IMG/VR virus record: IMGVR_UViG_3300025120_000156 | Coordinates: 1 to 40,945 of that record | DNA: 40,945 nt | Source of the DNA: a virus | Strand: one strand, 5' to 3' | Shown here: in pieces, positions 6,861-35,008 of the stretch | How positions within the stretch are numbered: the first letter of the stretch is position 1 | Layout of the letters: the number at the start of each line of letters is the position of its first letter | Program-made: the position numbers and the translations under genes | The notes under the pieces: generated by a model | The model's database searches: none | Seen by the model: only the letters and a program-made list of their open reading frames with translations | What the model was told of the DNA's origin: nothing

Positions 6861-8970
6861 TCTTATTACCTCCTGTAGGTTTCATGGCGGCAGTTGCCAA
6901 TTTAGCGGCTGCCTGGGTTTCAGTTTGTCCTCTACGGACTTCATTTGTCATTCCTGACAATCTTTCTCTCAATTCAAGCTCTTCTTGCTTCATTTGAATT
7001 TTACTTTGTAGCTCAGCCACTTTAAGTTGTGGATCTGCAGCTTCGCCTTGAGCCTTAGCCATATTAAGTTGGGCAGTAGATTCAAGAGTTTTAACTTCTG
7101 CTTCAAGTTTGGCAATTTCAAGTTGTGTTTGTCTAATTCTAGATTCCATTTCAAACTGAGCCAACTGCGCTTGTTCTGGAGTTGGTGGTTCAGTACCTTG
7201 CATCTGTCTAATACGTTGTGCAATATCTCCTTTACGTGCAAGATGTGAGTAATCAACAATTAAATCATCTGGTATTGGTACGCCCGCTTGACGTAATTGA
7301 ATTGCTTCAGCAAATTGAACTTCGTCAAAGTTATCTCTAGATGGAGCAGTTGCAATAACAACATCATACTCTCCCAAAGTTAAATCATTTATGATTTGCC
7401 CTTCAGGAGTGACTTGATTTACTGCCATCGGTTCTCTTGGTTTAAATGGATTTGACTCATCGGTAATTTGGATAACTCGCTCTTCGGTATAATACCGTTG
7501 TACAAGGTTCAATACTTTTTCTGCCAAGTATTGTCTTGTCTTTTTCAAATTATCCAAAGGAACTTGAATCATTAAAACGCCACGATTTTGTTTTGCTTGA
7601 ATTGCAACGCCCGATACTTCGGCCCCATCTGTTCCTAACATAGCGTCACTTATGCCACTAATTTGTTTTATATTGGAAGCAGCTTTTTGTGCAATTCTAT
7701 CTAGACCAGTTGGTATTTGGTTGGGTGGTATTTTACCTGGAGGAGTACTTCCTCGATTAAACTCAAGTACTAGTCCAGTTTCTGCGCCGTGTTCTTCTAG
7801 ATCATCCGCGTTCATTCCGGTTAAAGAACCAGATTCTACAATCCAACCACTGTTAGCAGTTGTATTTACTATGTGTAACTCTTGAGATGAAATTTTGTTT
7901 AGTTGTTCTTGAGGTGATATTAAGTTTCGCACCATGCCAAAAGGTTTACCTCTTCTCCAATACGGAAAATAAGGAACTAAAGTAAAATGTTCATAAGGAG
8001 ACCAGTCGTCGTGTAGTACTACTGTGTCTGCTGTTACCGTCCAGCGAACCGCTCGCATTTTTTTCTCTACTATATAGAGACCATAATCGTCAGCAAATTT
8101 TTCTCTTTTCTTTTTAGTCCAGTCATATGGTACGGGTCTTTGGTCCCCAGATACCGGATCAACATAAAGTATGCAATCTTTTAATTTATAGTGTTGTCTT
8201 TCAACAACTCGTATAGATCTTAAAGCTCTCGCATCCTCTGGGTTATTTGGATAGTCGCTACCATGATAATTTTCTTGATCAGTGTCTCCATAAGTTTCTT
8301 CTTCATACTCCATGGAATCTGCACCAAGAGTTGTACCAACCTCAGCAATCATTCTTAACTTATCTGCTTTGTCTTGCCCGTATGTTTCTTCTATCTCTTC
8401 AAGACTCATCCACTTACTTTCAAATATTTCATTCCAAGTTCTTGGATCATATTCTTTAGCATCAGGGTCAATAATAATATCTAAAGGATCTTTAGTTTCT
8501 ATTCTTACTTCGCCATTTATGTGATCAGAAAAATCTACTCGTACATCAAACCAACCACGGTCTTGAATTAACCCATCAGAAAAAGCTTGGCTTTCTAACC
8601 ATTCTAGTTTGTTGTTATCTGAAATTTGCATGTATAACCGTGTTAATACATCAGCTATTTCTTGATTGCCAGTTCCTCTAGGTTTAAATTGTACATCTGC
8701 TCTTCGCGTACTTTGTTCACCAAGAACTGTGTTAACTGTAGGTAAGATTGTGTTGATTGTTAATGCTGGTCGACCCTGGTCGTCGAGCGCTGATATATCA
8801 GCTTCGTCCCATTGTTCGCCGCGATAAAACGCGTCGCATTTTTGTGCCATGTCGACGTAGTCTAAATGCCCATGATCTCTGGCTCGGGTATAGGCTTCCC
8901 ATTGCCGTTTAGCAAGAGTCTGTTCTTCCCCTGCGCTAAGATTCTTTTTCTTTTTTTTATAATCTGCCAT
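6853..8970 (-). CDS. Portal protein (P22-like family)
   Basis: 705 residues, similar in length to the P22 portal. After a Lys-rich start it shows the 'AFYRGEQW' and 'RPALTINTILPTVNTVLGEQ' region (about 47-90) typical of P22-family portals, then 'DPLDIIIDPDA' (about 160-170). The C-terminal 120 residues (about 580-690) form a long Gln/Glu/Lys-rich helix consistent with the portal barrel. Twelve copies form the DNA channel and docking site for terminase. The start is coupled to the terminase stop through TAATG at 8970. Confidence 0.85.
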   Translation of the reverse strand: MADYKKKKKNLSAGEEQTLAKRQWEAYTRARDHGHLDYVDMAQKCDAFYRGEQWDEADISALDDQGRPALTINTILPTVNTVLGEQSTRRADVQFKPRGTGNQEIADVLTRLYMQISDNNKLEWLESQAFSDGLIQDRGWFDVRVDFSDHINGEVRIETKDPLDIIIDPDAKEYDPRTWNEIFESKWMSLEEIEETYGQDKADKLRMIAEVGTTLGADSMEYEEETYGDTDQENYHGSDYPNNPEDARALRSIRVVERQHYKLKDCILYVDPVSGDQRPVPYDWTKKKREKFADDYGLYIVEKKMRAVRWTVTADTVVLHDDWSPYEHFTLVPYFPYWRRGKPFGMVRNLISPQEQLNKISSQELHIVNTTANSGWIVESGSLTGMNADDLEEHGAETGLVLEFNRGSTPPGKIPPNQIPTGLDRIAQKAASNIKQISGISDAMLGTDGAEVSGVAIQAKQNRGVLMIQVPLDNLKKTRQYLAEKVLNLVQRYYTEERVIQITDESNPFKPREPMAVNQVTPEGQIINDLTLGEYDVVIATAPSRDNFDEVQFAEAIQLRQAGVPIPDDLIVDYSHLARKGDIAQRIRQMQGTEPPTPEQAQLAQFEMESRIRQTQLEIAKLEAEVKTLESTAQLNMAKAQGEAADPQLKVAELQSKIQMKQEELELRERLSGMTNEVRRGQTETQAAAKLATAAMKPTGGNKNG

Positions 8971-10616
8971 TAAGCGCTCATTGATGATTTACGTTTTTCG
9001 CCTTTTACTAAATGTTTTAATCCATCTCTCCATGACGGAATATGCTCGGGTCTTTCATAAAACGTAGCAAACTCTGTCATCATTAAACCAATCCACGCCA
9101 AGGCATCTACCTGGTCGTCATGTGTACCATTTGGGAAACGTAAAAGTTCTGCAACCATAGGTCCAGTCCAAACGGCGTCTTGTGGAAAGTATACCATACC
9201 TTGTTGCATTCTACCCTGGATCGCTCGAGCACGTAACTCCTTATCTCGCCTACCAACTTTTAAGTCTTTAAAGTACGCTTCGTTAAGGCCCCGTTCGCGT
9301 GTTCTTTTTTCTAGAAACGGACCCAAGGCCATCTCAATATGACCCCTTTCTATTCCCACTATACCTGGGCGCCATAATTCGTACAAGTCTAAAATTTGCT
9401 CTACTAACTCAAAGCCGTCGTATCTACCGCGAACGACATCAACAATAAATAAATTATCATATTCATCGACACCGACAACAATACCAACTGAGTAATCGTT
9501 CCTGTCACGCTGTCCGATCGCAAGATCCCACGCGCAGTAATATTTAAGTTTTGAAGTATCGATTTCATCGAAGTCGTAATAAGCGATCATGTCGCGGTTA
9601 AAATAGTCGCCTTCGTCAGATACAGGATTCTGTTGGTATAGAGCAGACCAATCGCGCGGGCCGATGGCTTTCCTTATCTGCTCGAGAGCGTCCACATTAT
9701 ATCTCTCTGGGTGTAAACTTTCACCTGTTTTCCTAAAACTTTCGTCTTCTTCTGCAATTGCTGGGTAGCGAATCACTTCCCATTCATCTGCGCCCTCTTC
9801 TGCTTGGGTTAACAAGCGCCCGGCCAAGTCGTCGTCGTGCCAACGCGTAAGAATAACTAGTATGCCTCCACCTGGGGATAACCTTGTATAAGCTGTGGAT
9901 GTATACCAATCCCAGGTCGCATCTCGGTTGTTATCGGATTCTGCATCTTCTCTGTTTTTTACCGGATCATCAATAACCATAACGTGCGCACCCTTACCAG
10001 TAATACCACCACCAACACCCGCTGCAACATACCCGCCGCCTTCTGTTGTTTGCCATGATTCTACTGACTGAGAATCTTTATCTAGTCTAGATTTTTCGAA
10101 GACATTTTTGTATACTGGTTCTCTTAGCAGTTGACGTACTTTTCTTGAGAAACTCATAGCTAACGACCCAGAATAAGAACAACTTATAAACTCGTGTTCA
10201 GGATGCCGGCCCAAGTGCCAAGCTGGAAATGCAATACTAGCAAGAGTAGATTTACCATGTCGAGGTGGCATGAAGAGCATCAATCTTGGTGACTCTTTAT
10301 TTGCTACCTGTTCGCTGAACTTTTCTAGCCGTTGGCAAATATCTTTGTGTACCCAACCTGCTTGGTAGTCAGTATTAAATCGTTCAACAAATGGGAGTAA
10401 CCTTTTACGTGCTAAAACTCTTTTCGCTAGCTCTTGTTCTGCTTTTACTTGCGCAGACAGTTCTGCTTTTTGTGACTTCTGATCAATCAGTTTTTGGGGC
10501 TCGGGTATTGCTTCAGCTTCGTCAGCTCGACAATATACACAGATCTCGTCTATAAGAACTAAGTTCTCCGGGTAGAGCCCTCGGCATTTTCTACACTCAG
10601 TCTTTGTTACTTCCAT
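8970..10616 (-). CDS. terL: Terminase large subunit with N-terminal zinc ribbon
   Basis: 548 residues from the ATG at 10616, with GGAG four bases upstream; an in-frame upstream start at 10649 has no ribosome site. The packaging motor shows Walker A PPRHGKS (117-123), Walker B 'VMVIDDP' (about 212-218), the coupling motif 'TRWHDDD' (257-263), and a nuclease domain starting 'WDLAIG' (D364), then 'GIERGH' (E423) and a late 'HDDQVDA'. Ahead of the ATPase there are two CxxC pairs (C8, C11, C26, C29), a zinc ribbon that is unusual for terminases. It overlaps the small-subunit gene by 20 bases. Confidence 0.9.
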   Translation of the reverse strand: MEVTKTECRKCRGLYPENLVLIDEICVYCRADEAEAIPEPQKLIDQKSQKAELSAQVKAEQELAKRVLARKRLLPFVERFNTDYQAGWVHKDICQRLEKFSEQVANKESPRLMLFMPPRHGKSTLASIAFPAWHLGRHPEHEFISCSYSGSLAMSFSRKVRQLLREPVYKNVFEKSRLDKDSQSVESWQTTEGGGYVAAGVGGGITGKGAHVMVIDDPVKNREDAESDNNRDATWDWYTSTAYTRLSPGGGILVILTRWHDDDLAGRLLTQAEEGADEWEVIRYPAIAEEDESFRKTGESLHPERYNVDALEQIRKAIGPRDWSALYQQNPVSDEGDYFNRDMIAYYDFDEIDTSKLKYYCAWDLAIGQRDRNDYSVGIVVGVDEYDNLFIVDVVRGRYDGFELVEQILDLYELWRPGIVGIERGHIEMALGPFLEKRTRERGLNEAYFKDLKVGRRDKELRARAIQGRMQQGMVYFPQDAVWTGPMVAELLRFPNGTHDDQVDALAWIGLMMTEFATFYERPEHIPSWRDGLKHLVKGEKRKSSMSA

Positions 10617-11118
10617 CTGGCTCCAAATAGTTTGTATCATTACCAGCAAGTTTTAAAAGCTGAGCATCGGTTAACTTCTCTAATTGTTCTACTTTCTCTA
10701 CATTTATATTAATCAGCGTGGCTTGTTCAGGAATGTGTAGACCGTGGAGCTTGCATAACGAATCGACGACGTTCTTTTCTTCGGTCGAGTTGGCTGCTTT
10801 TGAATGAGCTTCCAGGTACATGCCAGTTGCTGTGTTCTTGTCGAACTTTATCTCTTCGCGCATTTCATTACGGAAGTAGGTCAGAGCGGTTTGCATTTTA
10901 GGAGTCTTAAATATCTGATAGACGCGGTCCATATCCTTGTACCCCGCAGCACGGCCCGCGGCCGCTTTGCTCATTCCTCTTAAATGGAACAATACTAATC
11001 GCTCTTCTTGAACGGAGAGTTCGTTTAATTGTAATCCGGCATAAGGAAGGTGAGATTGTAACTCGTTTCTATCGGCTTCACTCATGTCAGTTGGTCTTTC
11101 TTCATCTAGTAATCGCAT
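10597..11118 (-). CDS. terS: Terminase small subunit
   Basis: 173 residues, directly upstream of and overlapping the large subunit gene. A helix-turn-helix-like segment ('GMSKAAAGRAAGY', about 48-60) would recognise the packaging site, followed by helical oligomerisation segments and a C-terminal part rich in Leu, Glu and Lys ('VEKVEQLEKL') that would contact the large subunit. Another ATG at residue 12 (11085) is possible, since the ribosome site before 11118 is poor. Its target site is likely nearby, possibly in the structured region 11640-11905. Confidence 0.75.
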   Translation of the reverse strand: MRLLDEERPTDMSEADRNELQSHLPYAGLQLNELSVQEERLVLFHLRGMSKAAAGRAAGYKDMDRVYQIFKTPKMQTALTYFRNEMREEIKFDKNTATGMYLEAHSKAANSTEEKNVVDSLCKLHGLHIPEQATLININVEKVEQLEKLTDAQLLKLAGNDTNYLEPDGSNKD

Positions 11119-11132
11119 GCTCGGGGATTATA

Positions 11133-11588
11133 TTAAAAATTTTCCTTGTGTGTAACTATATTTTTACACCACCAATACAGCTCATCTTCTGACATTGTAT
11201 GCTTAATTAAGTTAACACGCCAACATACGAGTTGAATGTTAGTAAGTATGTACTCTATGTTTGGATCTATTCTGTCAATCGACACGTTCGTGTTCCGTTT
11301 ATCGCCACCCTTGTGCCACGTCATGAAGGCCCCGGACAACGCGCAACGGCCGTCTTGTTTGTCCCACAATTCATTAAGTTGTTCTGGTGTTATCTCAAAT
11401 AACATGCCTTCTTCTTTTCCTCTCGAGTACTTTAAATGGTTATATAAATTTTTTAAATATTTATACGGACTAGAAGATTTATTTATATTGCTCTGAGCTA
11501 AAATGCATTGGCGACATGTTGTTCGTGCATTTTCAAAGTGAGCTTTTGGTAAGGTCTTCTTACACCGCTCACACATTCTATCCGCCAT
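11133..11588 (-). CDS. HNH endonuclease-like protein with zinc-binding N-terminus
   Basis: 151 residues. The N-terminus has a CxxC…CxxC zinc ribbon (C6, C9, C24, C27). The HNH core follows: 'DGRCALSG' then 'VSIDRIDPN' and 'LTNIQLVCWRVN' near 100-125, matching the HNH pattern in which the first His is often replaced. HNH proteins beside terminase are known to assist packaging or site-specific cleavage in many phages; a homing endonuclease is the alternative. It is the first gene of the leftward late operon, and the ATG has an A/T leader with no Shine-Dalgarno sequence. Confidence 0.75.
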   Translation of the reverse strand: MADRMCERCKKTLPKAHFENARTTCRQCILAQSNINKSSSPYKYLKNLYNHLKYSRGKEEGMLFEITPEQLNELWDKQDGRCALSGAFMTWHKGGDKRNTNVSIDRIDPNIEYILTNIQLVCWRVNLIKHTMSEDELYWWCKNIVTHKENF

Positions 11589-12225: not shown

Positions 12226-12286
12226 ACGGACTACTATCATCACATGTGTGGACAACATTCAACTGTTGTTCACACTGTGAGAAATA

Positions 12287-12576
12287 TGTTCCACATGTTC
12301 CACGGTCTAATCACCTTGTGGAACATTTACGTGGAACACAGATTTCGTTATAACAACGCACGTTTACAGATGGTATTGGCACGAATGTTCCAATGTTCCA
12401 TCAAAAACAGAACTTGCGTAAGACTGACCGTCGACCGTTGTTCGTTGTTATTGATATTTTATTAACCAAAAAGTACTGGAACACATGGAACATTTCCCAT
12501 TTGCCCAGTAACCACGCACCTTTCCAGTGTTCCACGAGGCCTATTTTACGTGGAACATTGTGGAACACGTGGAACA
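12287..12576. repeat. Iteron-like array: 12 copies of TGTTCCA/TGGAACA
   Basis: The 7-mer TGTTCCA or its complement TGGAACA begins at 12287, 12296, 12319, 12332, 12386, 12394, 12477, 12486, 12528, 12551, 12561 and 12570. Most come in pairs 8-10 bases apart, about one helical turn. Copies at 12528-12536 and 12549-12557 extend to a 9-bp inverted repeat (TGTTCCACG/CGTGGAACA). The region has no credible gene. Such arrays are typical of replication origins or multi-site operators; with the palindrome that follows, an origin is the favoured reading. Confidence 0.8.
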
Positions 12577-12580
12577 TTTA

Positions 12581-12622
12581 ACAACGGCTAACTAAATCGA
12601 AGCGATTCACGTTAGTCGTTGT
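12581..12622. other. Large imperfect palindrome, possible part of the origin
   Basis: The 12-base arms at 12581-12592 and 12611-12622 pair (one G-T wobble), and an inner stem AATCG/CGATT (12595-12599/12603-12607) closes a 3-base loop. It directly follows the iteron-like array and could form a cruciform or a primer-type hairpin during replication initiation. Confidence 0.6.
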
Positions 12623-16990: not shown

Positions 16991-18013
16991 ATGCAAAACA
17001 TTAACCCAAACGATCTCAAAGCCGAGATTAAAGATAACATCCGTATCGGACTTAACACCATGATATGGGGTGGGCCTGGCATCGGTAAATCAGACATACC
17101 ACAACAAGTGGCTAATGACTTAGATGTACCATTGCTGGACTTTCGTGCCAACTTATTCGACCCAGTCGATGTGCGTGGCATACCTCACATCATGCAAGAA
17201 CAGGAGACAGGGAAGCGTTACACGCGTTGGGCAGTGCCTGATGTGTTTCCTATTGCATCACGCGATGGCGAAACGGGGATTCTCTTTATAGATGAATTGC
17301 CAACTGCACCACCAGCTACACAAAACGCTTTCCTGCAACTCTTGTTGACCAGAGAAATTGGTGACTACAGAATGCCTGATGGCTGGTCTATTGTTGCTGC
17401 AGGTAACAGACTAACTGACTCAGCTGCTGTATTCCAAATGCCTAGTCCAGTACGTAATCGTTTATTGCATTACGAACTCGAAGCAAGCATTGATGACTGG
17501 GTTGAGTGGGCTTTCAAAGCTGGTATTAACTCAGAAGTTATTGGCTTCTTGCGTTACAGACCTGCGTTACTTAACAGTTTCAAAGCTGACGAGTATGCAT
17601 TTCCAACACCACGTTCATGGGCGTTTGTTGACAAGAAATTGTCCAATCGACCGTCGACCACTAGCGACGAATCGTTGTTCTTTGGTGTTGCAGCAACAGT
17701 CGGCGACGGCCCAGCGGGTGAGTTTATTGCTTACAAACAAATAGCTGACAAGCTTCAGGATGTAGACGCACTCATCAAAGAACCTGGCAGTTACAAGAAA
17801 GATGACAACCCAGCTGTCTTGTACGCATTATCAACATCTATTGCCACTCGTGCAAATGATGAAACCCTCGAAAATATTATCAAAGTATGCAACAAACTCC
17901 CATCAGAGTTTCAAGTAATACTAATGAAAGGTATTTTTGCAATCAACAAAGAGTTTATTAAGAATCAATTTTGTACTAAATGGATTCAAAATAATCACGG
18001 CTTATTATCATAG
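16991..18013 (+). CDS. MoxR-type AAA+ ATPase
   Basis: 340 residues. Walker A GGPGIGKS (27-34), Walker B 'ILFIDE' (97-102), sensor 1 Asn in 'AAGNR' (N139) and an arginine finger candidate in 'PSPVRNRLLH' (R155/R157) identify a MoxR-like AAA+ ATPase. Such ATPases work with VWA-domain partners as chaperones that remodel or activate target complexes. A VWA/metallopeptidase is encoded two genes downstream (19119), so the pair probably acts together. The C-terminal 100 residues are helical. Its ribosome site is in the hairpin 16973-16990. Confidence 0.85.
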   Translation: MQNINPNDLKAEIKDNIRIGLNTMIWGGPGIGKSDIPQQVANDLDVPLLDFRANLFDPVDVRGIPHIMQEQETGKRYTRWAVPDVFPIASRDGETGILFIDELPTAPPATQNAFLQLLLTREIGDYRMPDGWSIVAAGNRLTDSAAVFQMPSPVRNRLLHYELEASIDDWVEWAFKAGINSEVIGFLRYRPALLNSFKADEYAFPTPRSWAFVDKKLSNRPSTTSDESLFFGVAATVGDGPAGEFIAYKQIADKLQDVDALIKEPGSYKKDDNPAVLYALSTSIATRANDETLENIIKVCNKLPSEFQVILMKGIFAINKEFIKNQFCTKWIQNNHGLLS

Positions 18014-18022: not shown

Positions 18023-18745
18023 ATGAGCACAGTAAGAATGTCAGATCAACTACAGCGTGACATTACGCGTAAAGCAGAGGATATGTACGACAAAGCACAT
18101 CCTTATCAAGAGTATCCAGAATATCTGGGTAATAAAATATACACTAAGTATCTTAAAGACGACTTAGAATCTCTCAGTTCACACATTTTATCTAATGTAC
18201 CTGACGAAATCTCTAATCGTAAACTACAAATGAGTGAAGTAACTGATCTTAGTATTAGATCTACTTATTGTATTCACAAAAACCCAACTGATAATCCACA
18301 AGATTACGATGGCGAACCAGAGTTTGGTGAGTATCGCTTTGAGTTAAAAGTAATTGGTGGTTACCAAATATTAAAACTATTTAACACAGGCAGTAGTTAC
18401 AGCGATGACACGCAAGTTGATTTAGTAATCAATACAGACAAAGCTGTACCTGATTGTGAATTAATGGCTCAGTTGTACAGACTAAAACGTGACAACGACA
18501 AACGTGCTGACGAACGTAACAACTACAGACGTACAGTTCGCAACACTATTGAGTCTTTTACTACGCTTAATCAAGCACTTAAAGCTTGGCCTGCACTTAA
18601 AGATCTTGTTCCACAAGACAAGATAACTAAAGTCTACGAAAAAGTAGAACGCAAAGCTAAGCAACAACAACAGCGAGAAGCTATTGAAGTGCAAGAGCAA
18701 GAACTTAACTCAGTTATTTTAACTGCATCATTACTAGGAGATTAA
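18023..18745 (+). CDS. Nmad5-like protein (paralogue 1)
   Basis: 240 residues. The N-terminus 'STVRMSDQLQRDI' and the end 'LNSVILTASLLGD' match in plan those of the 278-residue protein at 20800, and both carry an '…LKAWPALKDLVPQ' / 'LDTWPAGKDSVPQ' segment near the C-terminus. This arrangement, helical N-terminus, beta middle, basic helix (about 155-180), then a Trp-Pro segment, recalls the Nmad5 family, predicted to take part in modified-base systems. The assignment is from memory and no active site is known. It sits between the MoxR ATPase and its VWA partner. Confidence 0.6.
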   Translation: MSTVRMSDQLQRDITRKAEDMYDKAHPYQEYPEYLGNKIYTKYLKDDLESLSSHILSNVPDEISNRKLQMSEVTDLSIRSTYCIHKNPTDNPQDYDGEPEFGEYRFELKVIGGYQILKLFNTGSSYSDDTQVDLVINTDKAVPDCELMAQLYRLKRDNDKRADERNNYRRTVRNTIESFTTLNQALKAWPALKDLVPQDKITKVYEKVERKAKQQQQREAIEVQEQELNSVILTASLLGD

Positions 18746-18747
18746 TT

Positions 18748-19122
18748 ATGGAAATAGGCCCCCCTAAATATAAACAAGGCGATTACGTACGAGCATGCTT
18801 TGGTGGCGGACACGTCAAATGTGTTATCAATGGCGTTAAACGTAACAAACGTGTTGACGCAGCATTACGTGACGGATCTATGAGTCCGTGGTTTCTTAGA
18901 CATAACCCTAATGGTTGGTACTACCAAGTAGCAAAACATTACGGTACTGGTACAAAAGACATACCTGATCTAAGTAAAGCTCACTGGTCTGATAACTTAA
19001 AACTAGTAATCAGTGAAGGTGAAATAATAAAAGCTATACCTGCAGATAGTGATTTTAAAATTAGACATCTTACAACTGGTATGACTGACGAAACAGAACA
19101 ACTAATACGGAGTAACCGATGA
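18748..19122 (+). CDS. Hypothetical protein, 124 residues
   Basis: Soluble basic/mixed protein; 'YKQGDYVRACFGGGHVKCVINGVKRN' near the start suggests a small SH3-like barrel. No catalytic motif. TAGGAG lies before the ATG within a possible hairpin (ATTA/TAAT, 18730-18746), a weak member of the ribosome-site set. Its end overlaps the VWA gene by 4 bases, so it may be part of the MoxR-VWA unit. Confidence 0.6.
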   Translation: MEIGPPKYKQGDYVRACFGGGHVKCVINGVKRNKRVDAALRDGSMSPWFLRHNPNGWYYQVAKHYGTGTKDIPDLSKAHWSDNLKLVISEGEIIKAIPADSDFKIRHLTTGMTDETEQLIRSNR

Positions 19123-20216
19123 ATCAAAACTTTACAAATGCACGTACACAACTTGTGCTTAACCAACCATTCTTTGGCACCCTTTGTCTTCGCCTCAAAC
19201 CCGTTGAACGTGATGACATGGATACAGGTGCCACAGATGGTGTGCATCTTTTCTATAATCCTAAATGGTTTGACAAATTGCAACCACTAGAACGTATTGG
19301 TTTTCTTGCGCACGAAGTTATGCACGTTGTGCTTATGCATATTTTTCGCAGACAAGAACGTCATCCAGAAAAGTGGAACGTAGCTTGTGACTATGCAGAA
19401 AATTATTTACTCAAGCAAGCTAACTTTATATTACCTAAAGGTGCATTGCTTGACGAACAGTACAACGACATGAGTGCAGAAGAAATCTACAACTTGCTTC
19501 CTGAACCTGACAAAGGTTGGGATTCAATATCTGTAGACTTTGGTGGTTGCGGTGGCGTGCTTGATCATCCTGGTACCGACGACGGTACTATAGGTAAATC
19601 AAAAGCAGAACTTAATGTTGCAATTAATCAAGCAGCAGAAAGTGCACGCAAAGCTGGCAAGCTACCTGGCAGCTTAGAATCTATACTTGGTGAGATTGCT
19701 GACCCTAAAGTATGTTGGAAACAAGTACTTGCTAGATTCTTGCGTTCTAATAACAGTGCTGACTTTAGTTGGCAAAAACCAAACCGTAGATTTATTGCTG
19801 GCGGTTTGTATTTACCTTCTATGTACAACCCATGTATCGATGAAATTGCCGTTGTGTCTGACACATCATGTTCTAGAACTGACGAAGAACTAAATCAAGA
19901 TCTTGCAGAAATTTCTTCTATTATTCTTGATGTTAATCCTAACAAAGTTCATTTTGTAGAAGTTGACACTGAAGTACAAAATTATACTGAATACACGCGC
20001 GAGTCTCTTCCCTTAAAAATGTCAATGATTGGTAGAGGTGGTACTGCATTTTCACCTGGCGTTGAGTACATAAACGAACACTATCCAAATGTTAGTGCTT
20101 TGATCTATCTTACAGATCTTGGCTCTAATGACTTTGGAGAGCGACCAAGTTATCCGGTCTTGTGGATAACAACACACGAAGGAGAAGCACCTTATGGTGA
20201 AATCATCAAAATTTAA
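19119..20216 (+). CDS. VWA-like metallopeptidase (DUF2201-type), MoxR partner
   Basis: 365 residues. The N-terminal domain carries a zinc-peptidase motif HEVMHVVLMH (H65, E66, H69, H74) followed by 'CDYAENYLL' (D91) as in DUF2201 proteins. The C-terminal domain is VWA-like with a MIDAS: DTSCS (D248, S250, S252), Thr in 'GGTAF' (T309) and 'TDLGS' (D333). These proteins are encoded next to MoxR ATPases in bacteria and phages, as here. The target is unknown; acting on host or replication proteins early in infection is plausible. Overlaps 18748 by ATGA and the following membrane gene. Confidence 0.85.
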   Translation: MNQNFTNARTQLVLNQPFFGTLCLRLKPVERDDMDTGATDGVHLFYNPKWFDKLQPLERIGFLAHEVMHVVLMHIFRRQERHPEKWNVACDYAENYLLKQANFILPKGALLDEQYNDMSAEEIYNLLPEPDKGWDSISVDFGGCGGVLDHPGTDDGTIGKSKAELNVAINQAAESARKAGKLPGSLESILGEIADPKVCWKQVLARFLRSNNSADFSWQKPNRRFIAGGLYLPSMYNPCIDEIAVVSDTSCSRTDEELNQDLAEISSIILDVNPNKVHFVEVDTEVQNYTEYTRESLPLKMSMIGRGGTAFSPGVEYINEHYPNVSALIYLTDLGSNDFGERPSYPVLWITTHEGEAPYGEIIKI

Positions 20217-20799: not shown

Positions 20800-21636
20800 A
20801 TGGCTAGTGTAAGAATGAGTGGTGATTTGCGAAATGAAATTTATCAAAATTTTAAAAAACAAATCTATAAAGTGTATGCGAACAACAGTGGTCTTCAAGA
20901 CTATTTACAATCTGTTGCAAAGTCTTTTCATTCAGTTCAAGAAACTGAACTAATGAAAGATTATATGGATTTACATGAACGTTTGTTTAGGTTTAAGCAT
21001 CCTAAATATAAACATGAAGAATTTTCTCCTAGAAAATATTTTGGTAGTTACAACGGACCTAAAGATTTTAATCAAATAAAAGAAATGCATTTTGTTATTA
21101 ATCCAAATCGGCCAGACCAAGAGTCCTTAACTTTTATGAATGGCAGTAATTGGCATGATCAATATACAGATCGTTACGATAGCAAAAGCCACCCAGCAAG
21201 TGATAATTATGTAGATGGTGATCACGCTTTAACACTAAAGTTAGATGAACCTATTCAACTTATACAAAATCATTCTGCAGATAAAATGTGGTCTGCTGAA
21301 AATAATGTTAAACAATATACAAATCCTATAATTGTTTCTTCTTATGTAGATGTAGATAACATAGAAACATTTGCTGAAGGTACTCTAAAGATTAATGAGT
21401 CTAAAGCACAAATTAAACATTTGTTGGCTAGCTGTACAACGCTTAAACGTTTTTTAGATACATGGCCTGCAGGTAAAGATTCTGTACCACAAAAATATTT
21501 AGACAAAATGTTTGCAGAAGCTAAACCAGTTGTACCTTCTAATTTACCTAAGTTTGATCCAGATTCAATATTGCCTGACGAAGTCAAGCAAGAAATGAAT
21601 AGCACTGTGTTAACAAGTAAACTAATGGAGAGTTAA
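20800..21636 (+). CDS. Nmad5-like protein (paralogue 2)
   Basis: 278 residues. It shares its start ('SVRMSGDLRNEI'), the central beta region and the ending ('MNSTVLTSKLMES') with the protein at 18023, and the Trp-Pro segment 'LKRFLDTWPAGKDSVPQ' near 215-232. The two diverged after a duplication. If the Nmad5 link is right, they may bind or help modify phage nucleotides; one paralogue could also have a new role. No classical methyltransferase or glycosylase motif is present. Confidence 0.6.
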   Translation: MASVRMSGDLRNEIYQNFKKQIYKVYANNSGLQDYLQSVAKSFHSVQETELMKDYMDLHERLFRFKHPKYKHEEFSPRKYFGSYNGPKDFNQIKEMHFVINPNRPDQESLTFMNGSNWHDQYTDRYDSKSHPASDNYVDGDHALTLKLDEPIQLIQNHSADKMWSAENNVKQYTNPIIVSSYVDVDNIETFAEGTLKINESKAQIKHLLASCTTLKRFLDTWPAGKDSVPQKYLDKMFAEAKPVVPSNLPKFDPDSILPDEVKQEMNSTVLTSKLMES

Positions 21637-22383: not shown

Positions 22384-22593
22384 ATGGACCGATTAATCTA
22401 CGTCAAACGTAATCCTCTCTGCCTTTATAGGTACAACACGCCTGAACATCTTCCGTATATACAATGGAAATTAGTTACACGTGGTGTCGCTTACAACATG
22501 GTGCACAGTAAACAAGTTGGATGGGAACGAGCAAAGAAAGGGGAGTATGAGGAGTGGTCTGCTCAAATGGATAAATTAAAAAAGGAGAATTAA
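22384..22593 (+). CDS. Small basic protein upstream of DNA polymerase
   Basis: 69 residues, rich in Lys, Tyr and Trp, with 'DRLIYVKRNPLCLYRYNTPEHLPYIQWKLVTRG' at the start and a charged helical end. No ribosome site before the ATG, so it may have a very short leader or use another start. The stop overlaps the polymerase ATG (TAATG at 22591-22595), suggesting coupling. Function unknown. Confidence 0.55.
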   Translation: MDRLIYVKRNPLCLYRYNTPEHLPYIQWKLVTRGVAYNMVHSKQVGWERAKKGEYEEWSAQMDKLKKEN

Positions 22594-24392
22594 TGAATTT
22601 ATTATATTTAGATTTCGAAACTTACTACGACGTACAACTGTCCCTGGGTAAAATGACAACTGTACAGTATGTTAATAACCCTGACTTTAAAGTATGGGGG
22701 GTAGGGCTTAAATTTAACGACGGTGAAACAGGTTGGTACTCTGAAGATGAGTACGAAGAAGCTCTTTCACAAATACCTTGGGATGACACAGCTGTTGTAT
22801 GCCACAACACATTGTTTGATGCGTACATACTTACACAGTATTTGGGCCACTACCCTGCGTACTACTACGACACTGCTTCCCTGAGCCGTGGCGTGTACCC
22901 AAACCAACCTGCAAGGTTAAAAGATGTTGCTATGCGAGTCTTTCCAAATGATCCTGCAATGCGTAAAGGAGATGAGCTTGTTAATGCAAAAGGCGTACGC
23001 GACTTAGATCCTGAGCTTGACGCACAAATTGGAGGCTACTGCATACAAGATGTAGATCTTACTTACGCTATCTTTCATCACATGATGCAAGGTTACCCAC
23101 AAGATGAGTTAGATATTATTGATATGACTGTGCGTATGTTTGTAGAACCTAAACTTATTTTAGATAAAGATATGCTTATTGCACATAAAGAAAAGATAAA
23201 ACAACAAACAGCAAAAGCAATTGAAGACTCTGGTACAACACGCGAGATTATGGCATCTCAACAAAAGTTTGCGCAATACATTGAAGAACTTGGTATTAAC
23301 GTACCCACAAAAAAAAGTCCTACAACTGGCAAACAAATACCTGCATTTAGTAAAACCGATTCTGCTTACATACAAATGCAAAATATGTATCCTGAGTACA
23401 AACATCTTTGGGATGGTAGAGAAGCAGTCAAGTCTCGCATAGAAGAAACACGTGCTGAAAGATTTCTTGAAAGCACAAACCCTGACGGAACTTTCTCAGT
23501 ACCGTTACGTTATTACGCAGCACACACTGGCCGCTTTGGTGGTACAGAAAGTATTAACTTACAAAACTTACCCAGGGGATCTGCACTTCGTACAGCAGTC
23601 ATGGCCCCTGCTGGGCAGTATTTGTATATTGTAGATTTATCAAACATCGAAGCCCGCATGCTTGCATGGTTAGCAAAAGAAGCCGATTTACTCGACGCAT
23701 TCGCAGCTGGCCGTGATGTGTATAGTGAGTTTGCATCTCAGATATATGGTTACCCAGTTACTAAAGCAAACAAGCTTGAACGTTACGTAGGTAAAACAGC
23801 TATCTTAGGTCTTGGTTACGGCATGGGTCCTGACAAATTTAAAGACACTCTTAAAAATGGTAAACCTTCTGTAGATATAGGTGAGTCAACTGCTATATCA
23901 ATTGTTGCGCAATACCGAGCTATGTATTCAAACATACCGAGGCTATGGCAACAATGTAAACACGCTCTATTTACAATGAATCACTCAGGAGATCCTGAAG
24001 GTCGTCCGTATGGACCACTTATTATTAAACCTGGCGCAATACAATTACCAAATACAATGTGTCTTAAATACCCACAACTTAGTTTTTCAGATGGTAATTT
24101 TGTATACAACTCAGGCAAAGGTATGATTAAAACGTACGGTGCTAGGTTAACAGAAAATATTGTACAAGCCCTGGCCCGTATTGTTATTGTAGAACAAATG
24201 CTTGAAGTACAACGCTTGCCTGAAGTACAAGTAGTGTTGCAAGTACATGACGAAATTATATCTATTGGTTCTAATTTAGATTCTGACAAGACACTTGATA
24301 AAATACTAGCTATAATGAAAACACCTCCTTCTTGGTGTTCAGATTTACCTCTAGATGCTGAAGGAGGCTATAGCCAAAGATATGACAAATGA
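22593..24392 (+). CDS. Family A DNA polymerase with 3'-5' exonuclease, Leu at position '762'
   Basis: 599 residues. Exonuclease motifs: I DFE (D7, E9), II 'HNTLFDAYIL' (N72, D76), III 'YCIQD' (Y149, D153). Polymerase motifs: A 'IVDLSNIEAR' (D348, E353), B 'RYVGKTAILGLGYG' (R397, K401, Y409) and C 'VHDE' (H552, D553, E554). The residue equivalent to E. coli F762 is L405; Leu here is common in marine phage polymerases and has been linked to altered fidelity and slower, more lysogeny-like lifestyles. No 5'-3' domain. Upstream start is coupled (TAATG); its last codons contain the csrA start. Confidence 0.92.
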   Translation: MNLLYLDFETYYDVQLSLGKMTTVQYVNNPDFKVWGVGLKFNDGETGWYSEDEYEEALSQIPWDDTAVVCHNTLFDAYILTQYLGHYPAYYYDTASLSRGVYPNQPARLKDVAMRVFPNDPAMRKGDELVNAKGVRDLDPELDAQIGGYCIQDVDLTYAIFHHMMQGYPQDELDIIDMTVRMFVEPKLILDKDMLIAHKEKIKQQTAKAIEDSGTTREIMASQQKFAQYIEELGINVPTKKSPTTGKQIPAFSKTDSAYIQMQNMYPEYKHLWDGREAVKSRIEETRAERFLESTNPDGTFSVPLRYYAAHTGRFGGTESINLQNLPRGSALRTAVMAPAGQYLYIVDLSNIEARMLAWLAKEADLLDAFAAGRDVYSEFASQIYGYPVTKANKLERYVGKTAILGLGYGMGPDKFKDTLKNGKPSVDIGESTAISIVAQYRAMYSNIPRLWQQCKHALFTMNHSGDPEGRPYGPLIIKPGAIQLPNTMCLKYPQLSFSDGNFVYNSGKGMIKTYGARLTENIVQALARIVIVEQMLEVQRLPEVQVVLQVHDEIISIGSNLDSDKTLDKILAIMKTPPSWCSDLPLDAEGGYSQRYDK

Positions 24393-24574
24393 GCAATCTA
24401 GTATTAACAAGACGTAAGAATGAATCAATAATTCTGCACCAGGATGGTAAAGAACTTTGCATTATTACAGTCACTTCTTTAGGACCTAAACAAGTTAAGT
24501 TAGGTCTTAATGCAGAAGAATCTGTTAAGATAGACAGACACGAAATATACGAAGCTAAACAAGCAAACAATTAA
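24389..24574 (+). CDS. csrA: CsrA/RsmA-family RNA-binding translational regulator
   Basis: 61 residues, the length of bacterial CsrA, and clearly that family: N-terminal 'LVLTRR' with R8/R9, the 'VTSLGPKQVKLGLNA' strands, and 'IDRHEIYE' containing R50, equivalent to the RNA-contacting R44 of E. coli CsrA. CsrA dimers bind GGA motifs in hairpin loops, usually over ribosome sites, and block translation. The start overlaps the polymerase stop (ATGA) with no ribosome site of its own, so its level should follow polA translation. Several early phage genes have matching hairpins; the host's mRNAs may also be targets. Confidence 0.93.
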   Translation: MSNLVLTRRKNESIILHQDGKELCIITVTSLGPKQVKLGLNAEESVKIDRHEIYEAKQANN

Positions 24575-24588
24575 AACAGGAGAATTAT

Positions 24589-27048
24589 ATGGAATTAGTT
24601 TTCTTAAAAGCAAAGCAACGCCTTGCAAAAGAGATCTCAAACAAAGGTACGACACCTTACCCGCTTACTAAAAACTTTACATCTGAACATGTACAAGTAT
24701 CTAAAACTAAAAAAGGTTTACACGATTTATTAAAACACTTACAAACACAAGCAGCAGCTGGTGCTTGTTTGCACAAAGGTTTATTAAAACGGCCACTTAT
24801 AAACGAATCACGAGCTATGATGGCGGATCGTGTAGCATCAACAGAGTTATTAATCTTAGATATTGATGGCATACAAATGCCTACCAGCCAGTCCCCTGAT
24901 GTACGCACTATCTCAGAAAAAATAATTGCTCAATTACCAGAATGTTTTCAAGATATTAGTTATATTGCACAAGCCAGTGCTTCTCTTGGTTTAAAAAAAG
25001 ATAAAGTATCTCTTCATTTATTCTTTTTATTAGAACAACCAACTCAACCAAAAATATTAAAAGAATGGTTTAAGTTATTAAATTACGAAACAGACATCTT
25101 GTCATCTCAACTAGCTTTATCTGCTAACGGACAAAGTTTGTCATACAAACTAGATCCTAGTGTTGCAGAAAATTCTAAAATTATTTATATAGCACCACCT
25201 ACTTTTAAAGACAACATACAAGATCCTATTTCAGGAGACAGATTTGTATTAATCGAACGTGGGTCGTCAACCTTAGACCCTAGACCTTTATTAATAACTG
25301 TTAACCCAGAACGCGTACATAACTTAGGTGTCCAGATTAAAGATGGCCTGCGTAAAAAACTTAACTTACCTAAAAAAACAGGCAAGTTAAGCACTATAAG
25401 TATAGGAGGCGAAGCTCAAGAAGTATTACAAAACCCTGACAAAATGACTATTGAAGTATCAAGAGTTAATGAACCTTACGTAAACTGTAATGTAAACGGA
25501 GGAGACAGCAACGGATACTACTTTGTACTAACTAACCCACATTACATGTACAACTTTAAGGGAGAACCTGTTTGGGAAATACAAAAAGCAGATCCTGATT
25601 TTTACCGCAACATTTTTGAGATATTTGCTGACAAAATAGACCAAAACAAAAAACTAAGACCAGTCGCTTTGCGAGACTTTTACACTGATACATATTTTAA
25701 CGGAGTATACGATGAATCAATTGAACAATTTACCGACAGTTATCCCCTCACGCCCACCAATAAGCAAGCGATTGATGATTTTATGCGGACTCATAATCGC
25801 CCTTCCTTGGATTACGTTCCTGATGCTAGGGTCGTATTTGATCCAACTAATGATAAAGGCATTCAGTTAGACGAAGCTCCTTATTATGTAAACCTGTACA
25901 GAAAAACTAAGTACATGTTAAATCAAGAAGAACATGTATCTGAGTTAACCTACGGTACAGCTGACAAACTACATACAATAACGCCTCGTATAGCTACATT
26001 GTTATCACATGTGTTAGGTGATGGTAAAACAGAGTTTGAGCATTTTGTTAATTGGCTTGCATACATATACCAAAACAAACAAAAAGCAATGACTGCTTGG
26101 ATTTTTACAGGTGTACCTGGCACTGGTAAAGGTTTGTTAATACACAAAGTATTAAAACCTTTATTTGGAGAACAACAAGTACCTATGCGAGCTCTAGAAA
26201 ACATCGAAGAACAATTCAACTTGTACTTAAGAACTGCTTTATTTCTTGCAGTAGATGAATTTAGAATGGGAGATGCAGGTAGCATTGGCAAAATGGCTGA
26301 CAAACTTAAACACCAAATTACAGAACCTAACTTAACTATTAGAGCAATGCGTTCAAATCAAATTGAACTACCTAGTTTCTGTAACTTCTTGTTTTTAACT
26401 AACAGAGCAGACGCAGTCAAAATAGAAGAGGGCGACAGACGTTACAACGTAGCACCTAGACAAGAAAAAAAACTAGATGTAGTTAATGTAGATCTTATTA
26501 ATAACTTAGGTGATATAGAAAGCGAACTATATATATTTGCAGGAGCCCTAAACAAGTTTCAAGTAGACCATCGTATGGCTCACACAGCATTAGAAAACGA
26601 AGCTAAAATACAAATGAAAAATATATCTATGTCTGTACTAGAAGAGTTTGCAGCAGCTATACGTCAACGTAACTTAGAATACTTTACTGAAGTGTTAGAC
26701 ATTCCGCTAACAAATACTTTTGATGCAGGAGGTATAACTACTGCACAAAGATATTTAAAATATTGGATAGCAGAAGTAGGTAACGAAATAATTATACCTA
26801 TGTCACAACTTAAATTAATTTATGACATCTTAACTGACAGTCGCAATAAATTATCTACAAGAGACTTTACTAAAGCTATGTCACGGTTAAATATAAAAAC
26901 TTCTAGAAAGCGCGTTAGTTCTAACAAAAACGACTCTATACCTAGAGGAGTTGTTTTAACCTGGAAATTAGACGATAATATTCGAAGTTCTTTAATTAAA
27001 GAACATTTTGAAGATAGAGATAATTTACTATTAAAGGAAACTAGCTAG
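24589..27048 (+). CDS. Primase-polymerase/helicase fusion (AEP + DUF5906-type)
   Basis: 819 residues. The N-terminal part has AEP primase motifs: DxD in 'LLILDIDG' (D91, D93) and SxH in 'VSLHLFF' (S141, H143). The C-terminal half is an SF3-like helicase with Walker A GVPGTGK (508-514), a Walker B-like 'FLAVDEF' and a downstream Asn and Arg pair in 'FLFLTNRAD…GDRRYN', as in DUF5906 helicases. It likely primes and unwinds at the phage fork with the family A polymerase. Ribosome site CAGGAG; 14 bases after csrA. Confidence 0.85.
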   Translation: MELVFLKAKQRLAKEISNKGTTPYPLTKNFTSEHVQVSKTKKGLHDLLKHLQTQAAAGACLHKGLLKRPLINESRAMMADRVASTELLILDIDGIQMPTSQSPDVRTISEKIIAQLPECFQDISYIAQASASLGLKKDKVSLHLFFLLEQPTQPKILKEWFKLLNYETDILSSQLALSANGQSLSYKLDPSVAENSKIIYIAPPTFKDNIQDPISGDRFVLIERGSSTLDPRPLLITVNPERVHNLGVQIKDGLRKKLNLPKKTGKLSTISIGGEAQEVLQNPDKMTIEVSRVNEPYVNCNVNGGDSNGYYFVLTNPHYMYNFKGEPVWEIQKADPDFYRNIFEIFADKIDQNKKLRPVALRDFYTDTYFNGVYDESIEQFTDSYPLTPTNKQAIDDFMRTHNRPSLDYVPDARVVFDPTNDKGIQLDEAPYYVNLYRKTKYMLNQEEHVSELTYGTADKLHTITPRIATLLSHVLGDGKTEFEHFVNWLAYIYQNKQKAMTAWIFTGVPGTGKGLLIHKVLKPLFGEQQVPMRALENIEEQFNLYLRTALFLAVDEFRMGDAGSIGKMADKLKHQITEPNLTIRAMRSNQIELPSFCNFLFLTNRADAVKIEEGDRRYNVAPRQEKKLDVVNVDLINNLGDIESELYIFAGALNKFQVDHRMAHTALENEAKIQMKNISMSVLEEFAAAIRQRNLEYFTEVLDIPLTNTFDAGGITTAQRYLKYWIAEVGNEIIIPMSQLKLIYDILTDSRNKLSTRDFTKAMSRLNIKTSRKRVSSNKNDSIPRGVVLTWKLDDNIRSSLIKEHFEDRDNLLLKETS

Positions 27049-31964: not shown

Positions 31965-34031
31965 CTATAAAGTTGGTTGCATTTCTTTAAGACTTGTTAA
32001 AGTCCTAATACTAGTTCCCGCTAGCTGATAAAATGCGTTTGTATTATCTTGGATAGTATTAGTAGTATAAATGCTTTTGGGTTCATACCAAACTTCTTTT
32101 TCTGGCAAACTAACTAATCTATAGTTATTAAACCCAGGAACAAAACCCATTACTGCAATGATTGCATTTTCAGATCCATACTCTCCAGTTTCTTCTTGTT
32201 GTGCTTGCACGTCTTCTTGCGCATTTTGTAAGTTTTCTGCAATTATATTTTCTACTGTGGTATCTGTATCAGAATCAGTACTAACAGAATTAACTGCTAT
32301 GTTTATACTGTTTTGACTAGATACAGTTGCTACTGTTGCAACAACAACTTCAGTAGTAGTTGTTTCTGTTTCAACTGTGCTTGTACTTATAGAAGTATCA
32401 GTTACAGACGTGCTACTCATATCAAGCACTTGGTTGGTTTGGGCGGTAGATGATGCAAATTGATCTGACATGCTAGGCGAACTACTGGTGCTAATACCAG
32501 AGTTTGAAGAAGAACTAACGGCATTGCCAGCTGCAGCACTATTACCTGTAGAGTGAACAGATGTGCCTGCTGTTGTACCACTAACACTAGCTTGTGCTGT
32601 AGCTAAGGTAGATGAAACAACATTTAGAGCCATTTCTCTACTTATAGAACTTTTTCCTTCTGAAGCCATAATTACTTCTTCTTCTATTTCTTCTATAATT
32701 TCTTCCTCTTCAACAAGTTCTTCAACGGGTTCTTCCGCCGGCTCCTCTGCATGCGCAAGTTCTTCTTCCATTGCTGTCTCTTCCTCAAACCATTCCTCCA
32801 GTTCTTCAATAGTTTCTAGTTCAATAAATGTTTCAGGCTCTCTAAAGTCTTCTACAAGAAAAGTTTCTTGAAAAATAAACTCTTCAATCATTATATCTTC
32901 TATAGGTAAAAAAACTTCTTCCTCATGCATGGGTAGATCGTGCATAACCTCAAGGGGTTCATAGTATTCTTCTTGTGAAAACATTTGTTCAAAGATTATT
33001 TCTTCTTCAAAAATAAATATAGGGTCTTCAAAATATTGTTCTTCGAATTCAAACACAAAATCTTCGAACATAGGCTCTTCTTCATACCCGAAGTCTTCTT
33101 CTTCGTAGCCATAATCAAAGTATTCTTCTTCTTGAAAATAGGCAATAGAGTCTTCTTGTCTGTAACCCTGGCAAAAAGGCCCATACTGAGGATCTAAATC
33201 ACACTGCAAATCATCATATGCTTCCCAATATAAAGGGCAAGACTCATTATAAAGTTGAGTGATATTACACTGTTGGGTTTGATAAGCTTCAGCGTAACCT
33301 GAACAGCTAGAATCATTTAGCGCGTTGCTACAATCAACACCATTACCACTGCCTGAACCATATAAAGAACCACCATTTTCTAGTGTTGTATTTATAGTTG
33401 TATTGTTCCAATTAGTATTTACACAACTAGAACTATTGGTAGTGCCAGTAGAACATTCATCATGGTAATAATAGGTGTATGAGTTTGTTTTGTTAGAGCC
33501 TACTTCACCTATCAGCACGTCATGGTTGATAATATTAAGTTCACGATAGCGTATATCAAAAGAGTTGTTGTTCCAAAGTATTACTTCAAAGCTATTGTCT
33601 GTATTGCTTCTGTTGTACTCTCTTAAATTATACCAACCAAAGATCATCTTGCTGTTATCACCCCAAGACTTCATACGTGAGCCCGAGTCTCTAATTAAGT
33701 CAGTCCAGAAGGGATATATGGTATAAGTGTGCTGCCCATTGATAGGGTCAGGAGTATAGTCATTACAATAGCTACCACTAGAACCAAAATGGAGACATCC
33801 ATTAGTTGCCATTCTTGCTTGGCTAAATGTAGACCCATAAAAAGTAAAATCAAAAGAAAGGTCAATTGCAGGAGAAATTCCATCATCAGATACTGAGTAA
33901 GCTAACTCGCCCTCAAAGTTGTTTGCGTTAGCATTAAGGTCGTAAAGGTCTTGGTTATTTTCATAAACATATTGGGCTGATAAATTACTTGTAAGTAATA
34001 AACAACCTATTACTTTAAGCCAGCTATGCAT
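31965..34031 (-). CDS. Exported protein with a nidogen-like N-terminus and a very acidic Glu/Tyr/Phe region
   Basis: 688 residues from the ATG at 34031, directly followed by a signal peptide ending 'SNLSA'. A beta-rich domain (about 20-200), with 'NIINHDVLIGEVGS', resembles a NIDO-type domain. Cys pairs follow (about 185-275). Residues 294-450 are about half Glu, with many Tyr and Phe. A Ser/Thr/Ala-rich linker and a C-terminal 70-residue region that looks folded ('GFVPGFNNYRLVSLPEKEVWY') end the protein. An exported or virion-surface role is inferred. It overlaps the preceding Asn/Thr-rich gene. Confidence 0.6.
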   Translation of the reverse strand: MHSWLKVIGCLLLTSNLSAQYVYENNQDLYDLNANANNFEGELAYSVSDDGISPAIDLSFDFTFYGSTFSQARMATNGCLHFGSSGSYCNDYTPDPINGQHTYTIYPFWTDLIRDSGSRMKSWGDNSKMIFGWYNLREYNRSNTDNSFEVILWNNNSFDIRYRELNIINHDVLIGEVGSNKTNSYTYYYHDECSTGTTNSSSCVNTNWNNTTINTTLENGGSLYGSGSGNGVDCSNALNDSSCSGYAEAYQTQQCNITQLYNESCPLYWEAYDDLQCDLDPQYGPFCQGYRQEDSIAYFQEEEYFDYGYEEEDFGYEEEPMFEDFVFEFEEQYFEDPIFIFEEEIIFEQMFSQEEYYEPLEVMHDLPMHEEEVFLPIEDIMIEEFIFQETFLVEDFREPETFIELETIEELEEWFEEETAMEEELAHAEEPAEEPVEELVEEEEIIEEIEEEVIMASEGKSSISREMALNVVSSTLATAQASVSGTTAGTSVHSTGNSAAAGNAVSSSSNSGISTSSSPSMSDQFASSTAQTNQVLDMSSTSVTDTSISTSTVETETTTTEVVVATVATVSSQNSINIAVNSVSTDSDTDTTVENIIAENLQNAQEDVQAQQEETGEYGSENAIIAVMGFVPGFNNYRLVSLPEKEVWYEPKSIYTTNTIQDNTNAFYQLAGTSIRTLTSLKEMQPTL

Positions 34032-35008
34032 TCTCTTTTGAGTTGTGGAGCAGAATGCCAAACTTGTTTACACCTTTGTACTTTTTCTTTGTACCAGACT
34101 TTATAGTCCGGTCGGTCTTGTTTGTTTTCTTCCCAAGCAACTGTTGCTTCTTTACCTATTTTACCTTGGTAAGGACAAGGTGTGCCGGCCATTTCCATTG
34201 CAGCAAACACTCTAGGATCTGCACATAACAATGATATAGAAGCCACTTTCATACCCATATCGTAAAGATATTTAGATAGTTTTAATCTTTCACAGTTTTG
34301 ATCTCTTACTGTTTTACCACCAGAAAAACCAAACACTTGGCCCTGGAACGCGCCCGATCTACCTACGGTACATAAGTCTTGTGAATAAGACATTATAGAT
34401 GGAGCAATAGCTGAAGCAGGTGGAGCTTCAGACTTTACGTTTTGATTGATAGTTTGCGTTGAATTTGACTCGTTAATGTTTCTATTCGTGTTATCAGATT
34501 TGCTGTTATTTTCATTAACATTTTTGTTATCAGTTGTAACATTTGAATCTGACGTTGAAGTATTGACATTTGTATTATTCGAAGTGTTGACGTTAGTATT
34601 ATTCGAAGTGCTTGAATTCGTGACATTTTGATTTACTGTCGAATTAACTGTTGAGTTAGAAGTTGAATTCGAAGTATTAACATTGTTGTTTGTATTAGTA
34701 TTGTTAGAAGTCGACGTATTAGTATTAGTATTATTATTAGTATTATTGTTAGTATTTGTTGCTGTATTTATATTTGTATTTTGATTAGTACTAACATTGG
34801 TATTCGTATTTGTATTTACGTTGGTATTACTGTTGGTATTAGTATTGGTATTTACATTTGTATTTGAATTAGTAGTTGTGGTGTTGTTAGTAGTATCCAA
34901 ACTATTTTGCTCGCAATACTGAGAGCCAGCAGTACAGTTACCTGTCTGGTCCCCATAAGAATTAAATGATAGTACTAACCCTAAAGCTAGAAGTACGCGT
35001 TTGTTCAT
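34010..35008 (-). CDS. Exported Asn/Thr-rich low-complexity protein
   Basis: 332 residues: signal peptide (1-20, ending 'NSYG'), a short Cys pair, then about 140 residues of Asn-Thr/Ser repeats (residues about 38-190), then a C-terminal Cys-containing domain (about 200-332, 5 Cys) with 'QVFGFSGGKTVRDQNCERLK'. The repeats are likely disordered and could be a spacer between membrane and a Cys-stabilised head. Similar proteins are common in marine phage sequences, but function is unknown. Its end overlaps the 688-residue gene by 22 bases. Confidence 0.6.
   Translation of the reverse strand: MNKRVLLALGLVLSFNSYGDQTGNCTAGSQYCEQNSLDTTNNTTTTNSNTNVNTNTNTNSNTNVNTNTNTNVSTNQNTNINTATNTNNNTNNNTNTNTSTSNNTNTNNNVNTSNSTSNSTVNSTVNQNVTNSSTSNNTNVNTSNNTNVNTSTSDSNVTTDNKNVNENNSKSDNTNRNINESNSTQTINQNVKSEAPPASAIAPSIMSYSQDLCTVGRSGAFQGQVFGFSGGKTVRDQNCERLKLSKYLYDMGMKVASISLLCADPRVFAAMEMAGTPCPYQGKIGKEATVAWEENKQDRPDYKVWYKEKVQRCKQVWHSAPQLKRECIAGLK

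Follow-up and report, generated by a model that had tools for sequence, protein, structure and literature searches.

An iteron array around an AT-rich core as the probable replication origin of a phage lineage, with a primase-helicase as its candidate reader

The origins of PICIs contain two sets of iterons around an AT-rich region, a layout that has been described as present in no other known bacterial replicon (PMC6092414). The initiator of PICIs and SaPIs is a helicase, in some cases joined to a primase, that binds DNA through its C-terminal domain (PMC6092414, PMC7581432), and the origin lies immediately downstream of the rep gene of the integrating satellite. In SaPI Rep and in Cch2, a protein of the Staphylococcus mobile element SCCmec, it is the C-terminal domain that binds the iterons, and assembly of two hexamers on the repeats has been suggested; Cch2, the C-terminal domain of which alone binds the AAGTG direct repeats, only three in number, is a proposed self-loading helicase that works with a primase made of a separate protein pair (PMC7581432). 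In the PrimPol of phage NrS-1 (PDB 6K9C, 6K9E, 6LRB), an AEP primase is combined with a hexameric SF3 helicase and with a tail domain reported as novel; the known signal of this enzyme is a priming site on a single-stranded template, TTTGGTTA (PMC8718748) or GTGG, and no iteron array has been described for NrS-1 in the literature covered. In lambdoid phages, the O protein is neither a helicase nor a primase. The lambdoid iterons are part of the O gene itself and flank the AT-rich region on one side. They adjoin this unwinding region (PMC7466680).

Here we describe an iteron array in the window, that is, the whole stretch of 40,945 nucleotides of virus DNA that was analyzed, which is a fragment of a phage with relatives of about 50-64 kb. 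The array has on one side the leftward late genes, of which the first is at 11133-11588 and which encode a P22-like portal protein, a capsid protein and the terminase (small subunit, 10597-11118; large subunit, 8970-10649), and on the other side the rightward early genes, which encode a MoxR-type ATPase/VWA-like pair, a PD-(D/E)XK nuclease, an SNF2-type helicase, a family-A DNA polymerase (22593-24392), a CsrA-like protein and a protein with AEP primase and SF3 helicase domains. The polymerase shares about 35% identity with the enzyme of Pseudomonas phage KPP25 and up to 100% with polymerases of IMG/VR contigs; comparison of the DNA of the array region with known phages gave no match, and the genes examined did not include an integrase.

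Organization and conservation of the array

An earlier note on this DNA had reported 12 copies of TGGAACA/TGTTCCA, mostly in pairs, in a gene-free span between divergent operons. The count holds: 12 exact sites fall within 12287-12576, out of 17 in the whole window (5 in the other 40.6 kb), where about 6 are expected by chance. In 60 simulated genomes (first-order Markov, same dinucleotide make-up), the densest cluster of any 7-mer in 290 bp comprised 3-5 copies, at most 5 compared to the 12 found here, so that the array contains short repeats beyond chance, as an iteron origin should. The pairing is equally real, with starts within pairs 8, 9, 10 or 13 bases apart, and the span is gene-free inasmuch as the two small ORFs that cross it (12244-12465 and 12393-12581) look like chance ORFs because, in the relatives, many indels and substitutions occur there while the sites are kept. 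What the earlier note had missed is the overall organization and the core: the sites, built from tandem pairs, follow the order <<>> << core >> < >>>, with start spacings of 9, 23, 13, 54, 8, 83, 9, 42, 23, 10 and 9. The elements of this region are the following.

12230-12242, plus strand: ACTACTATCATCA, conserved in 1-2 copies immediately to the left of the array in each of the motif classes A to E
12287-12576, unstranded: iteron array of 12 exact sites, as counted, syntenic in relatives
12287-12338, unstranded: left outer iteron module, < < 23 > 13 > (sites 12287-, 12296-, 12319+, 12332+)
12386-12400, minus strand: left inner tandem pair beside the core (sites 12386-, 12394-); KPP25 has the same inner <<
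12401-12476, unstranded: core between the inner pairs, proposed as the DNA-opening region; the KPP25 equivalent is 70% AT
12426-12437, unstranded: core repeat GACCGTCGACCG, of which classes A to E retain a similar version
12438-12472, unstranded: stretch of 80% AT, candidate unwinding element (window overall, 61% AT)
12477-12492, plus strand: right inner tandem pair beside the core (sites 12477+, 12486+)
12528-12576, unstranded: right outer iteron module, < 23 > 10 > 9 > (sites 12528-, 12551+, 12561+, 12570+)

As in the lambdoid O-protein origins, a candidate AT-rich unwinding region adjoins the iterons, both here and in KPP25. Inside the AT-rich stretch, at 12463-12470 on the minus strand, is TTTGGTTA, the octamer used by the NrS-1 PrimPol, which we treat as a lead only because it is not conserved across all relatives. 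The ACTACTATCATCA element is a mirror-symmetric 13-mer that reads the same backwards and stays constant while the iterons switch; in the relatives, it is at times also found a few hundred bases further left of the array, and it is absent from the KPP25 stretch examined.

Conservation in relatives, one of the checks that the earlier note had proposed, is pronounced, with the array found at the syntenic region in 11 of the 11 more complete relatives that hold it. Altogether, about 75 fetched loci carry the array, nearly always adjoining one or two CTACTATCAT elements. The repeat occurs in five motif classes, namely, A (TGGAACA), B (TGGAACC), C (TGGTACA), D (TGGTACM; L037 and L143) and E (TGTAACA; several relatives that have CTACTATCAT but no TGGNAC array), with classes A, B and C all represented among the 11 longer relatives. 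Among the class A relatives, the geometry is kept almost to the base and the spacers have diverged. Between classes, almost all sites of an array change together, with little alteration of their spacing and orientation; many class B arrays contain both A and C at base 7. This near-simultaneous change at nearly all sites implies that the reader of the array is a co-evolving phage protein. We reject a binding site for a host protein on account of such wholesale change of the motif between related phages.

The array extends to a cultured phage, KPP25, in which TCGTRACA sites with the same layout and order surround a 107-bp core that is 70% AT, within a phage stretch of 40% AT. The KPP25 primase-helicase is about 29% identical to the window protein over 86% of the length and has a short wing (see below), and the KPP25 iteron shares GTAACA with class E. 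Neither iterons nor a replication origin come up in the published paper on CRPAP1904, a KPP25-like phage, and a text search of the open-access literature, which given this scope is weak evidence of absence, found no mention of the array. The search for an array was negative in phiA008, the initiator of which is 31% identical, and in a phage contig with 41% identity that is part of a bacterial genome (contig G089).

The primase-helicase and co-variation of its wing with the iteron

The candidate reader of the array is encoded in the early block, with the following relevant parts.

24589-27048, plus strand: proposed initiator of 819 aa, an AEP primase fused to an SF3 helicase, identified by catalytic motifs, homology and co-variation
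26725-26961, plus strand: predicted C-terminal winged-helix domain, approximately residues 713-791 (AlphaFold2 model, pLDDT 90.3)
26908-26943, plus strand: wing loop KRVSSNKNDSIP (residues 774-785), which we propose reads the iteron and in which residue 784 tracks base 4

The AEP motifs D91xD93, S141xH143 and D189 are invariant in 14 relatives, as befits an NrS-1-like enzyme, and the SF3 helicase region (residues 468-701) is homologous to that of the NrS-1 PrimPol (6K9C/6K9E; phmmer E ~1e-28). The C-terminal 138 residues were modelled with a winged-helix topology (pLDDT 90) and the wing at residues 774-785, whereas the tail domain of the NrS-1 PrimPol has been reported as novel; a Foldseek search of the PDB with the C-terminal model yielded no significant match, the weak matches often being winged-helix proteins. 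The model of the full-length protein is poor (pLDDT 56).

The wing sequence varies with the motif class, being RKRVSSNKNDSIPRGV in class A, RKRxSKDRxAGIPRGV in class B, RKRMGEGENRSAPRGV in class C, RKRVSKDRTASAPRGV in class D and VKRIQSKTVRGV in class E. In the 43 phages for which both the array motif and the protein are known (a few of these pairs are linked via shared contig sequence and may come from near-identical but distinct contigs), residue 784, just before PRG, is I or V if base 4 of the iteron is A, and A if base 4 is T, with no exception. This residue is the top column for base 4 among 2,938 columns in 8 proteins. When 18 proteins were searched for single-residue convergent separators of base 4, these were found only in the primase-helicase (residues 258 and 784), among the proteins for which both T lineages are well sampled, that is, L037 plus at least ten T-class members. 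The large terminase subunit and the product of the gene at 20800 show many base-4 separators because only a single T clade is sampled for them. The second separator in the primase-helicase, at residues 258-259 (approximately 25360-25365 in the window), involves a change from L/N/M/S to A at 258 and lies outside the winged helix; it may touch the DNA as well or may merely hitch-hike.

Mapped on the polymerase tree, the motif shows two switches at base 4 and two at base 7. Residue 784 changed with both base-4 switches, and both base-7 switches were accompanied by replacement of K with R at residue 780, with one exception (L304, with R780 and A as base 7). Given only two pairs per base, an independent-pairs sign test cannot reach significance. 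The base-7 association is confounded with phylogeny, as columns of the SNF2 and polymerase proteins separate base 7 too, so the ranking of columns for this base is not our main evidence. The wing was also of predictive value. In the L015 group, for which the motif was not yet known, the shortened wing led us to expect another motif; TGTAACA arrays of the same layout were found beside CTACTATCAT in its relatives L016, L017 and L019, and L254, with another short wing, also has TGTAACA. Furthermore, L299, which was outside the fitting set, combines an SAPRG wing with TGGTACA sites. Co-variation of motif and wing thereby points to the primase-helicase as the likely identity of the phage protein that the earlier note had supposed, without a name, to bind the repeat.

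Probable replication origin and competing interpretations

At the level of sequence comparison, the array, its conserved geometry, the synchronous switching of its motif and the co-variation with the wing are established; the array itself very probably represents the replication origin of a phage of 58-64 kb, with the iterons bound by this phage's own AEP primase/SF3 helicase through the C-terminal winged helix. This reading is favored by the iteron sets around an AT-rich core, the fixed geometry combined with a switching motif, the wing co-variation and the position of the KPP25 array. The GC-skew turning point, which the earlier note had suggested as a check, is near the array, the skew minimum being at most about 2.4 kb away in the complete genomes, but it coincides with the switch of gene direction and is confounded with it.

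The alternative that survives best is a multi-site operator at which a phage DNA-binding protein, possibly the primase-helicase, would repress or activate divergent early and late transcription. The location between the leftward late and rightward early genes, where promoters must be nearby, is compatible with such a function, and the inverted pairs with starts 23 bp apart could suit a dimer. However, the KPP25 array, which has the same layout, is flanked by early genes of one direction and is about 2.6 kb away from the divergent junction, which counts against a purely divergent-operator role; moreover, an operator has no need for an AT-rich core with inward-facing sets, and the co-varying protein is a primase-helicase rather than a regulator. 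As the primary function, an operator appears unlikely, and the evidence favors the first of the two possibilities, origin or operator, that the earlier note had put forward. A secondary operator role, in autoregulation of the early genes, may exist.

Considerably less probable is a packaging (pac) site bound by the small terminase subunit. Both terminase genes are near the array in the window, but in KPP25 about 4 kb separate the array, which is within the early block, from the presumed small terminase gene; an AT-rich core is not usual for pac; and the small subunit contains only one single-residue base-4 separator, a conservative one (column 29, I vs L/V), with 3 T-class members, so that we reject this possibility on account of the little co-variation in few members. 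A partition site can be dismissed with still greater assurance: the TGTTCCACGTGGAACA half-sites resemble chromosomal parS, and GTGGAACA is visually similar to GTGAAACA, the parS half-site, but the change to TGGTACA or TGTAACA abolishes the likeness, an integrase did not appear among the genes examined, and ParB_N (PF02195) had matches in 0 of 12 genomes, the same search being positive in 10 of 14 control genomes. Equally far-fetched is the idea that the GGA in TGGAACA serves, once transcribed, as a sponge for phage or host CsrA, given that a CsrA-like protein is encoded at 24389-24574, since the sites are in both orientations and GGA is missing from the arrays of classes C (TGGTACA) and E (TGTAACA) even though the class C phages still encode CsrA.

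If the array is indeed the origin, the primase-helicase would act as a self-loading enzyme and bind the 7-bp iterons via the C-terminal winged helix, in which the wing would recognize bases 3-4 and 7. As the iteron sets on the two sides of the AT-rich core point toward each other, they could load a pair of helicase rings of opposite direction. These facing rings, once formed on both sets of iterons, would open the core and prime the two strands, resulting in a bidirectional start, after which the family-A polymerase and accessory proteins would extend the primers. The initiator would act in trans, from a gene 12 kb away.

Relationship to known origins and other features of these phages

The likeness to the PICI and SaPI origins lies in the inner << and >> iteron pairs that flank the AT-rich core (PMC6092414) and in the apparent use, as initiator, of a helicase with a C-terminal, here predicted, DNA-binding domain. 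Unlike those origins, which adjoin rep, the array (12.3-12.6 kb) is far from the primase-helicase gene (24.6-27.0 kb); unlike the satellites, the window has terminase, P22-like portal, capsid and polymerase genes of its own, and the phages are of the lytic type, with no integrase seen; and the initiator helicase is of the NrS-1/DUF5906 type, with an unrelated iteron sequence. Accordingly, given the lytic type of the phages and the distance of 12 kb to the initiator gene, this is not a PICI origin by membership, although it would work like one. Compared to Cch2, the putative C-terminal reading of iterons is shared, whereas the number of iterons, the fusion of the primase and the type of element differ. 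From the lambdoid origins, the array differs in flanking the AT-rich region on both sides, and from NrS-1, the homologous helicase notwithstanding, in the nature of the signal.

There is perhaps an even chance that a widespread marine lineage of lytic-type phages, along with KPP25, uses the origin layout hitherto described only for PICIs, with firing in trans by a primase-helicase of the NrS-1 type and with the origin specificity set by a few wing residues. The array extends this layout to dozens of phage contigs and a cultured phage, and suggests where NrS-1-type primase-helicases start replication. If the proposal is correct, the wing would contain a readable code, in which I to A at residue 784 corresponds to A to T at base 4 and wing length corresponds to GTAACA, and the repeated co-switching of origins and initiators would create replication-compatibility groups among co-infecting phages. 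The natural motif and wing variants provide a test bench for origin recognition by a self-loading helicase and bear on the evolution of origin specificity when a dozen sites must change together, and CTACTATCAT plus the array can serve as a marker for finding origins in metagenomic phages.

Several other features of these phages deserve mention. Metagenome-assembled genome bins assigned to Neomarinimicrobiota, Planctomycetaceae and Rhodospirillaceae (L325-L327) contain contigs of these phages, which probably are co-binned rather than indicative of the host. The CsrA-like regulator is encoded between the polymerase and the primase-helicase and shows 40-82% identity in the relatives examined. 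The MoxR-type AAA ATPase (16991-18013) and the DUF2201 metallopeptidase/VWA-like protein (19119-20216) form an early operon pair kept in all relatives tested. The proteins encoded at 18023-18745 and 20800-21636 match Nmad5 (nucleotide modification associated), although the match of the 20800-21636 product does not reach the Pfam cut-off; both evolve fast, with about 25-55% identity between relatives. Finally, 34010-35008 and 31965-34061 encode long low-complexity proteins, one Asn/Thr-rich and one Glu-rich, and these genes give rise to tandem ATTAGTA-type DNA repeats.
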